Source: Deltaproteobacteria bacterium (GTDB taxonomy: Bacteria; Desulfobacterota; Binatia; HRBIN30; JACQVA1). Taken from it: a stretch of 64,000 nucleotides of DNA. Location: assembly GCA_016178705.1 (NCBI GenBank), contig JACOST010000014.1:744001-808000 (forward strand). The letters are read 5' to 3'. Within the stretch, counting starts at the first letter, position 1; every line of letters begins with the position of its first letter. Below the pieces are notes generated by a model, which searched no databases, was not told where the DNA came from, and saw only the letters and a program-made list of their open reading frames with translations. Shown piece by piece: positions 5,952 to 8,934 of this stretch. The position numbers were made by a program, and so were the translations under genes.

Positions 5952-7841
5952 CTACTGGCGCGCGCGTATGCGATCGGCGCGTGATTGATGGAAGCGCAGC
6001 GGGACGCCGCCGTCGGGTGTCGGAGTATCGGTTGGCGTCGGCGTGTCGGTGTCGGTGGCCGTCGGCTCGGGTGTGTCGGTCGCGGTCGGTTCCGGCGTGT
6101 CCGTCGTTGTCGGTTCTGGTGTGTCGGTGACGGTCGGTTCGGGTGTGTCCGTAGCCGTTGGTTCGGGTGTATCGGTTGTGGTGGGTTCCGGCGTGTCGGT
6201 CTGCGTCGGCAAGAGGGTGTTGGTTCCTGTCGGGACCGCGGTCACAGTCGACGTTGAAGATGAAGTCGGCGTCGCGGTTATAGTCGCGGTCCGGGTGACG
6301 GTTCGCGTTGGTGACTTGAAGCCGATCGGCGTGATGGTCGCCGTCCGCGTCCGCGTGGCGGTGCGTGTTCGCGTGCGGGTCGAGGTGCGCGTCGGCGTGC
6401 GGGTGATGGTCGGGGTCCGCGTGATCGTCGGAAGGTGAGTCTTTGTGCGGGTAGGCGTCGCGGTCGCGGTGCGCGTGCGCGTGCGGGTGATCGTCGGCGT
6501 TCGGGTGTTGGACGGGCGCAACGTTGCGGTTGCCGTCCTTGTTGCCGTTGGGCGAGTCGGGGTCCGAGTCGATGTTGGTGCTGGAGTTGATGTCGGCACG
6601 CCGCCACCCGCGCGCGTGCCAGGATATACGAACTGGACGGCGGCCATGTCGTCCGCCTTGACGCCGGCGCAACGGCCGTCGAAGTGCGCGATTGCTGCCA
6701 TGGTCGCGGTGTTGTCGAGCGAATGTCCCAAGCCGATTGAATGTCCCATCTCGTGGGTGGCCACCTCGCTGAGGTTGCAGCGATTCCAGAACGAACAAGT
6801 CGACCAGCCGTTGTTGAAGGTCACCTTGCCGAGCGCGATTTGCGAGAAGGTGGTGCCGTTGACGACCTTGGTCGCACCGCCCGAACAATATCCGCCGATG
6901 GCGAGGATACCGCTGCAACTCGACGGGTTGGTGATCTCGTTGAATGGATCGTTGAACACCAAGCGGTTGCTGCCCGAACAGGTGTTGAAGGCGGATGGAC
7001 CGGTGTCGCCGCCATCGCCGAGGACGATGCTGGAGTTAGGGACGTTGCTCCAGGCGGCCATCGCATCGAGGATCGCGTTACGTGACTCGGTGGGGCCGAT
7101 CTTCGCATCGCCGGTGGTGTCGATCGCGTAGTTCACCGGTAAATCGCTGTCGGGTTGAAACCATCGCGCGCTCCCGAGCAGAACGAACGCGTCGCGGGTC
7201 TCGCGCGGAATGTTCTCGCGAACCTCGGGCGGTTCGACGACGATCGGTGGCTCATAGCCAGCGGTGCGCATCGCAGCCAGCTTGTGCACGCGCCGCTTCA
7301 ACCGTTCGAGCTTGGTCGCGCGCGGCGCCGGAGCGATGCGCAACTCCCCGTTGACCGGAACCAAGACCAGAGCACCGCCGAAGTCGCGGCGTGCCTGCAG
7401 CTCGCCGTGCGCGTTGTAGTCGATCGAGTATTTCCCCATGGTCAACGCGGTGGTCTGCAGTGTCCCGTCGTGGTTGCGGCTGAGGAACAGCAGAGAACGC
7501 TCGCCGACCCAAAACTCCGGTGCCCCGAAAACTGCCTCTGTGCGTGTGCCGACCGATCCGCCCGGCTCCTTCAAAATGATCTGCCCGCCATCGGGTAGGT
7601 CGCCCATCAGTACCTGATCGGTGTCGAGCGACACGTAGGTGTGGACCGGGCTGCTATCGTCGCGGCTAGCCGACTCGATGTGGGTGACTGTCCCAATCAC
7701 GACCGCGACCGATTGATCCAACAGGGCGCGCTCTTTCATGAGGACGAAGGTGGTGGCGCCGGCCGGCGATGTCCAGAGACTGCCGACGGTCACCATCAGG
7801 GCGAGGAGCAGGGGTTTGGGGGCGCGCATTTCAGGGTTCAA
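5952..7841 (-). CDS. secreted matrixin-like zinc metalloprotease with Thr-Pro stalk
   Basis: 629 aa. An N-terminal signal peptide (hydrophobic LLLALMVTVGSLW, then SPAGA) marks it as exported. Residues about 362-372 carry the zinc site HEMGHSIGLGH, the extended HExxHxxGxxH of matrixins (metzincins), followed by an Ala-Thr-Met segment (TATMAAIAHF) that fits the Met-turn region. The last 200 residues are a low-complexity stalk of T-P-T/R-T units ending GGVPLRF and a basic tail. This resembles the stalk of the first gene here and suggests surface display. It probably cleaves extracellular protein; the substrate is unknown. The start could be Met1 or Met5. It lies 37 bases downstream of selD on the same strand, though a shared function is not obvious. 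Confidence 0.85.
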   Translation of the reverse strand: MNPEMRAPKPLLLALMVTVGSLWTSPAGATTFVLMKERALLDQSVAVVIGTVTHIESASRDDSSPVHTYVSLDTDQVLMGDLPDGGQIILKEPGGSVGTRTEAVFGAPEFWVGERSLLFLSRNHDGTLQTTALTMGKYSIDYNAHGELQARRDFGGALVLVPVNGELRIAPAPRATKLERLKRRVHKLAAMRTAGYEPPIVVEPPEVRENIPRETRDAFVLLGSARWFQPDSDLPVNYAIDTTGDAKIGPTESRNAILDAMAAWSNVPNSSIVLGDGGDTGPSAFNTCSGSNRLVFNDPFNEITNPSSCSGILAIGGYCSGGATKVVNGTTFSQIALGKVTFNNGWSTCSFWNRCNLSEVATHEMGHSIGLGHSLDNTATMAAIAHFDGRCAGVKADDMAAVQFVYPGTRAGGGVPTSTPAPTSTRTPTRPTATRTATATLRPSNTRTPTITRTRTRTATATPTRTKTHLPTITRTPTITRTPTRTSTRTRTRTATRTRTATITPIGFKSPTRTVTRTATITATPTSSSTSTVTAVPTGTNTLLPTQTDTPEPTTTDTPEPTATDTPEPTVTDTPEPTTTDTPEPTATDTPEPTATDTDTPTPTDTPTPDGGVPLRFHQSRADRIRARQ

Positions 7842-7878: not shown

Positions 7879-8934
7879 CTAGGCTATCACACGAATAAGG
7901 CCTGTGGGATCGTCGAAAAGTTCGCCGATATCCGCCACTGTGACGACGCCATGATCGTGCAGCGCTCGCTGCAATTCTGCCCTCTTGCGCTCTGCCACAG
8001 CGAGCAGCAGGCCGCCCGAGGTCTGCGCGTCGGCCAGAACCAATTTGGTTTCGGGCGACACACTCGGATCGAACTGAGCGAAGTCCTCAGCAAAAGTCAG
8101 GTTGCGACGGCTGCCACCGGGGACGATGCCATCACGTGCAAGCTGTGGCACCTCAGGCAGCACCGGTACTTGCCGGGCGGAGATACGGGCGCTGAGGCCA
8201 CTACCGGCGGTCATTTCGTGCAGATGCCCAAGCAAACCGAAACCCGTCACGTCGGTAGCTGCATGCACACCGATGGCGATCGCCGCCTCGGCGGCGGCGC
8301 GATTGAGCATGCTCATGATCGCGATGGCCCGTTCGATCAGATCGGTTGACGCCAGGTCACGCTTGATCGCGGTCGAGATGATCCCCATCCCCAGCGGCTT
8401 GGTCAGGATCAAGCGGTCGCCCGGCTGCGCGCGCGAGTTGCGAATGATCTTGTCGGGGTGAACCACGCCGGTCACCGCCATGCCGTATTTGGGTTCGCGG
8501 TCATCCACGGAGTGACCACCGACGACGGAGACGTTGGCTTCATGCGCTTTGTCGGCACCGCCACGCAGGATCTCTCCCAAAATTTCGAGCGGCAACTCGG
8601 TTGCCGGGAAGGCGACAATGTTGAGCGCAACGATCGGGCGTGCGCCCATCGCATACACATCACTCAACGCGTTGGCCGCGGCGATCTGGCCGTACGCGTA
8701 CGGGTCGTCGACCAATGGCGTGATGTAGTCGACCGTTTGGACGATGGCGAGGTCGGGCGTCAGACGATACACCGCGGCGTCGTCGGACGTTTCGGTGCCG
8801 ACCAAGAGGTTCGAGTCCGCCGGCGCGGCGGGCAGTTTGCGCAGGATCTCAACGAGATCCTTTGGGCCGATTTTGCAGGCTCAACCCGCGCCGTGACTGA
8901 ACGAGGTGAGGCGAATACGCGCTCGATCGTCCAT
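7879..8934 (-). CDS. selD: selenide, water dikinase (SelD), selenocysteine-containing
   Basis: SelD makes selenophosphate from selenide and ATP for selenocysteine and selenouridine synthesis. The ORF visible without recoding (from 8805) starts at MVGTETSDDAAVY and lacks the N-terminus. Reading on upstream in frame gives MDDRARIRLTSFSHGAG-U-ACKIG, with UGA at 8883-8881 as codon 18. That codon sits exactly where SelD has its catalytic Cys or Sec (E. coli GAGCGCK, Cys17). The following Lys21 matches the catalytic Lys. The rest is intact (DDAAVY, VGGHSV, TKPLGMGI, DVTGFGLLGH, SGGLLL), and the full length of 351 aa is normal for the family. A bSECIS-like hairpin follows the UGA. So this is an active selenoprotein gene, not a truncated one. 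The start ATG at 8934 lacks a strong ribosome site. Confidence 0.88.
8843..8861 (-). promoter_or_regulatory. bSECIS-like hairpin for UGA recoding in selD
   Basis: On the minus strand, AGGATCTC-GTT-GAGATCCT forms a perfect 8-bp stem with a 3-nt apical loop that begins with G. The loop starts 28 bases after the UGA, within the 16-37 base range known for bacterial SECIS elements, which also need a G at the loop top. SelB would bind it to deliver Sec-tRNA. It lies inside the coding sequence, as bacterial elements do. The hairpin is seen directly; SelB binding is inference. Confidence 0.75.

Follow-up and report, generated by a model that had tools for sequence, protein, structure and literature searches.

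The stretch of DNA analysed here (64,000 nucleotides; hereafter, the window) carries a gene that a plain ORF call reads as a 308-aa SelD, beginning MVGTETSDD... at TTG 8805. The question raised by this locus is whether the gene begins there, or upstream of an in-frame UGA that would be read as selenocysteine (Sec), as had been proposed in an earlier note made from the sequence alone. We conclude, with a probability of about 97%, that the gene is a Sec-type selD, its UGA being predicted to be decoded as selenocysteine from homology through the codon and from the company that it keeps in the genome and the class.

Gene model and homology through the UGA

Direct reading of the minus strand gives a frame of 351 residues, from an ATG to the stop codon TAG at 7881-7879. 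An in-frame TAA (8946-8944) lies four codons 5' of this ATG, with no other ATG, GTG or TTG between them; an earlier start is therefore excluded and the start is fixed at ATG 8934. Codon 18 is a TGA, the sole stop inside the 351 codons, and the residues flanking it read RLTSFSHGAG-U-ACKIG. The 351-aa gene model is right; it restores the catalytic residue and the 43 N-terminal residues that the plain call misses (Table 1). Directly downstream of selD (window 5952-7841, minus strand) is a gene for a matrixin-like protein (PF00413) whose long tail consists of TDTPEPT-like repeats; a homologue of it also adjoins selD in a related genome, G078.

Table 1. Positions of the selD features in the window, and of the genes in the same and related genomes discussed in the text.
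Feature	Coordinates	Strand	Remarks
selD	7879..8934	minus	351 codons, UGA18 read as Sec; coordinates include the stop codon; SelD profile and AIRS/AIRS_C domains
selD start codon, ATG	8932..8934	minus	read directly; in-frame TAA upstream
In-frame UGA, predicted Sec18	8881..8883	minus	opposite Cys of SelD chain 3u0o
bSECIS-like stem-loop, 8 bp, loop GTT, loop G at +28	8843..8861	minus	paired bases unchanged in G000, G078 and G075; weak alone
Truncated 308-aa ORF, TTG start	7879..8805	minus	plain ORF call
SelW-like 78-aa protein, CVPU (CxxU)	G000:C21:95303-95509 (L170:9298-9531)	plus	PF10262; UGA at codon 11
AhpC/TSA-Redoxin paralogue, WUGCR	G000:C30:269625-270662 (L210:9625-10662)	minus	broken by plain ORF call
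AhpC/TSA-Redoxin paralogue, WUGCR	G000:C11:201627-202709 (L227:1537-2724)	plus	broken by plain ORF call
SelD with Trp (TGG) at the Sec codon	G018:C4 (L166, L249)
SelD with Cys (TGC) at the Sec codon	G022:C46 (L161, L250)

Adding the 43 N-terminal residues raised the score against the SelD equivalog profile TIGR00476 from 367.5 to 413.2 bits (+45.7; cut-off 125 bits), and the match of the 351-residue protein then begins at profile position 1 and extends over positions 1-310 of 311. The protein also scores 398.8 bits against NF002098 (cut-off 299) and contains both AIRS domains above their gathering scores (PF00586, 102.4 bits; PF02769, AIRS_C, 80.3 bits). When it was aligned with the SelD chain 3u0o, which we take to be E. 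coli SelD with Cys17 as the catalytic cysteine, the match covered residues 6-341 (295.3 bits), with a Cys opposite the UGA and the SHGAG motif in both proteins. Residues 1-40 align with Sec-type and Cys-type SelD alike, and R8, L9, T10, G17, C/U18, K21, G23 and P24 do not vary among the 14 SelDs aligned. The codon thus lies at the catalytic Cys/Sec position with the flanks that the earlier note had given, and the truncation of a 351-aa gene by the plain call, which it had also pointed out, is borne out.

The codon at this site was then compared among related loci chosen by similarity (n = 110; 30 from the class and 80 from named genomes). In the 101 that were parsed, nine being left unparsed, it was TGA in 77, TGT in 12 and TGC in 12; the pattern used for the parse also permitted Ser, Thr, Gly, Ala and Arg and is blind to other residues. 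A further 26 loci of the class have a stop (15), Cys (nine) or Trp (one) at the site, or end short of it (one). In two relatives the upstream reading and the UGA are both retained: G078, whose SelD is 75% identical to that of the window, and G075, with 77% identity over the 188 residues present on its contig. We regard the homology that flanks the UGA on either side as the decisive evidence for a Sec-type selD, and the hairpin described below as supporting only.

A stem-loop downstream of the UGA

A bacterial SECIS element (bSECIS) is a stem-loop that closely follows the UGA and has a G near the start of its loop, and this rule was applied here. The 8-bp hairpin claimed in the earlier note is present: 8861-8854 pairs with 8850-8843 around the loop GTT (8853-8851), whose G is the 28th base past the UGA, and its stability is -11.0 kcal/mol. 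Under a loose rule, an equally or more stable hairpin follows 210 of the 1752 TGA trinucleotides counted on the window's two strands and is found at 25 of the 205 TGAs that terminate open frames of at least 100 codons; a strict rule (a perfect stem of at least 8 bp, closing a short loop that begins with G) is satisfied by 44 of the 1752. The hairpin was matched by 3.5% of 200 synonymous recodings of the selD peptide. Among the class loci, scored at 29 of 30 because the pattern missed L033, many hairpins are no better than the synonymous recodings of their own sequences. A hairpin alone is common and hence weak evidence. The hairpin was initially considered as strong evidence, and was dropped as such when the control with the TGAs of the window showed it to be weak alone; the argument is therefore made from homology and co-occurrence.

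All paired bases of the stem are identical in the closest relatives compared (G000, G078 and G075), while the loop codon is GTT, GGC and GGT respectively. Five of the six stem codons are identical across the three, versus 45 of 124 codons elsewhere (Fisher p 0.03), and in the sixth the difference is confined to a base outside the stem. An Rfam scan of the window at gathering thresholds gave no match.

Selenocysteine machinery and other UGA-containing genes

The earlier note had taken the UGA to imply a complete Sec system elsewhere in the genome, and this system was found. A tRNA-Sec with anticodon TCA scores 74.7 bits (gathering score 47), and SelA (596.9 bits) and SelB (389 bits) are encoded in the same genome as selD, their genes being separated by 35 bases on a contig other than that of selD. 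The genome has a single SelD match, away from selA-selB. Both observations that the note had named as speaking against its reading turned out the other way, since the genome contains the machinery, and the upstream reading with its UGA is retained in G078 and G075. The gene marks the organism as Sec-decoding.

We considered whether SelD might be the sole selenoprotein of this genome. This was rejected, as a SelW-like gene and two redoxin genes also have an in-frame UGA; there are thus at least three UGA-containing genes besides selD, one SelW-like and two AhpC/TSA-Redoxin (Table 1). All are among the candidates of a motif-filtered UGA scan, which requires a Cys, Ser or Thr close to the UGA and covered ∼1.29 Mb of the 6.1-Mb genome. 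Of its 30 candidates, selD, the SelW-like gene and the two redoxins were taken up and the other 26 were viewed by their flanks only. In the redoxin paralogues the WUGCR motif sits within the AhpC/TSA domain (U139 and U172), and matches to the first of them occur in 51 of the 148 class genomes, the match containing one TGA somewhere in 49 of the 51. A UGC-containing TlpA-family selenoprotein and a Redoxin-family selenoprotein are on record in the portion of PMC13188914 available to us, and the two redoxin genes are probably of known kinds. A search for a Sec-type formate dehydrogenase gave 19 formate-dehydrogenase-like stretches of the genome, none with an internal stop. Selenouridine was considered as a further use of selenophosphate, and the selenouridine synthase TIGR03167 had no match in the genome at E 0.001. 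In the window itself, a readthrough scan gave eight TGA sites, and the seven besides selD were judged by context to be ordinary ends or starts of genes.

Co-occurrence of UGA and machinery across the class

A SelD-like match is found in 124 of the 148 class genomes. It contains one clean TGA in 92, is stand-alone or partial without a stop in 11, falls within a 702-861 aa frame in 20, and is fragmentary in one (G086). These and the following tallies were compiled by hand from search outputs, genomes absent by name being filled in by elimination. The 92 genomes with a UGA-containing SelD have SelA in 91 cases, SelB over the cut-off in 89 and a tRNA-Sec match in 76 (all three in 73); the corresponding figures for the remaining 56 are 32, 30 and 31. 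No UGA-containing SelD occurs in the 20 genomes that lack SelA, SelB and tRNA-Sec. The gaps among the 92 (tRNA-Sec in 16, SelB over the cut-off in three, SelA in one) may be due to draft incompleteness and to stricter filters for tRNA-Sec. The UGA at this codon of SelD hence tracks the Sec machinery across the class, and SelD can be viewed as a natural record of where the 21st amino acid was gained and lost.

Against this pattern stands G059, in which all three machinery genes are missing although a redoxin match contains one TGA. G063, which has a tRNA-Sec, and G076, which has a SelB fragment, likewise combine the absence of a SelA match with a redoxin match that has a single TGA inside it. 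In G001-G007, G066-G068, G074, G093, G096, G099-G104 and G144, the only SelD-like match lies in the 702-861 aa frame, without a stop; SelA is present in 19 of these 20 genomes, and the long frames are possible fusions.

One genus is represented by seven genomes. Five have a UGA in selD, while G018 has TGG (Trp) and G022 has TGC (Cys); these two are among the 20 genomes that lack all three machinery genes. Neither of these two draft genomes has a SelA match or a tRNA-Sec; SelB searches gave no match in G018 and one, below the cut-off, in G022. In G017, G019 and G023 selB adjoins selD, whereas a search of the 17 and 19.5 kb surrounding selD in G018 and G022 gave no SelB stretch. The dN/dS of SelD is 0.25-0.38 in the five close pairs that include G018 or G022 (dS 0.12-0.15), as against 0.135 in G017-G023, the sole UGA pair at comparable distance, and 0.06-0.19 over all ten UGA pairs; the six pairs at greater distance that include G018 or G022 have values of 0.11-0.23, overlapping the UGA pairs. 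This pattern fits the view that UGA means Sec here, and that SelD converts or decays after Sec decoding is lost. SelD in G018 and G022 is of the type usual in the class, not that of the window.

Other readings of the codon

If translation began at TTG 8805, the only start given by the plain ORF call, and the upstream frame were open by chance, the product would be a 308-aa SelD without its catalytic residue. We consider this extremely improbable, as the upstream reading extends the match to SelD profiles back to position 1, is retained together with the UGA in both relatives, and contains the residues from R8 to P24 named above as unvarying in the 14 aligned SelDs. A disabling mutation or a sequencing error in a Cys-type selD would need little, TGA being one base away from TGC and TGT. 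This too is hardly credible for a UGA that is common to G078 and G075, that has its counterpart in 92 of 148 class genomes, and that is accompanied by no second stop in 351 codons; the presence of the Sec machinery in the same genome also argues against a disabled Cys-type gene.

The UGA might instead be read as another amino acid, e.g. as Trp by near-cognate readthrough, and TGG does occupy the codon in one relative, G018. That genome, however, has no SelA, SelB or tRNA-Sec match, and the raised dN/dS of its SelD looks like decay after the loss of Sec decoding. Wherever the machinery was found, the codon in the parsed loci is UGA or Cys, and we give this reading next to no weight. Decoding as selenocysteine is the reading that we adopt.

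Two types of SelD in the class

The SelD of the window differs from that usual in its class, and this is the modestly new point of the analysis. Its motif is SHGAG-U-ACK, versus AAG-U-AAK or AAG-U-AGK in the majority of the 30 loci read from the class. In a tree of 101 sequences it groups (96/91) with G078, with the SHGAG copies of G118 and G119, and with SelDs of Methylomirabilota, Nitrospirota and Poribacteria, the usual SelD of the class forming a separate clade (100/99). The usual selD lies immediately after selA-selB in G131 and G116. G118 (L027, L151) and G119 (L028, L152) both contain one UGA-containing SelD of each type.

Constraint trees were built by a quick search; they comprised the 30 rows from the class together with 33 of the 80 named loci, hand-chosen for spread. 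A single clade for all 30 class rows was rejected (p-AU 0.016), in a set that includes other odd rows, one of them long-branched. Constraining the window's three rows to group with the 20 usual class rows lowered the log-likelihood by 40.9 units and was not rejected (p-AU 0.054); the expected proof that this selD originated outside the class was thus not obtained. When the same three rows were joined to the SHGAG copies of G118 and G119, the resulting tree surpassed that of the free search by 7.6 units (p-AU 0.684), and the SHGAG type may therefore be old within the class.

It is conceivable, though we hold it to be doubtful, that an ancestor of this lineage swapped the usual Sec-type SelD of the class for a distantly related Sec-type SelD. 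As the synthesis of a Sec-type SelD itself requires selenophosphate, a newcomer could have been adopted only while the older SelD still worked; if such a replacement took place, G118 and G119, with both types in each, would show the two-enzyme stage. Old duplication followed by loss may account for the two types as well as foreign replacement.

Discussion

The gene structure, the homology through the UGA, the machinery genes and their co-occurrence across the class are observations; the following scheme extends them to function. Translation would start at ATG 8934, and the UGA at 8883 would be decoded as selenocysteine by SelB and Sec-tRNA-Sec, presumably aided by the stem-loop just downstream. 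Sec18 is predicted to lie in an N-terminal loop that handles selenide. SelD would convert selenide and ATP to selenophosphate, which SelA would put to use in making Sec-tRNA-Sec. The enzyme would then depend on its own product, and would also supply the other selenoproteins of the genome.

That Sec-type variants of SelD are already known, and that the gain lies in a correct gene model, was acknowledged in the earlier note, and we agree: this selD belongs to a large and long-published selenoprotein family, is ordinary in kind and raises no new mechanistic question. From the portions available of the papers cited here, Sec is present in 19% of SelD genes in 223 reference genomes, with a bacterial SECIS (PMC4561486), and SelD is the second largest prokaryotic selenoprotein family (PMC13188914). 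FdhA and SelD have been described as the most widespread selenoproteins, with the suggestion that SelD possibly maintains Sec decoding where FdhA is absent (PMC1794560, in part). Orphan SelD genes have also been described (PMC5029168, in part), as have fusions of SelD to NADH dehydrogenase (PMC4561486).

As far as the available text of PMC4561486, PMC1794560 and PMC13188914 describes Sec-containing bacterial SelD, the gene in the window resembles it in having SelD domains, Sec predicted at the single catalytic Cys/Sec site, a bSECIS-like stem-loop just downstream, and selA, selB and tRNA-Sec in the genome. There is no difference in kind, only that this selD does not lie beside selA-selB and carries the SHGAG-U-ACK motif. 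Cys-type SelD, such as that of E. coli (3u0o), shares SHGAG and has a Cys where the gene in the window has a UGA. The NADH-dehydrogenase-like/SelD fusions (NCBIfam TIGR04369, and PMC4561486 in the portion available) have a SelD-like domain in common with it, whereas the two fusion-type loci that were read (L168, L169) have Cys and the selD of the window is stand-alone with a UGA.
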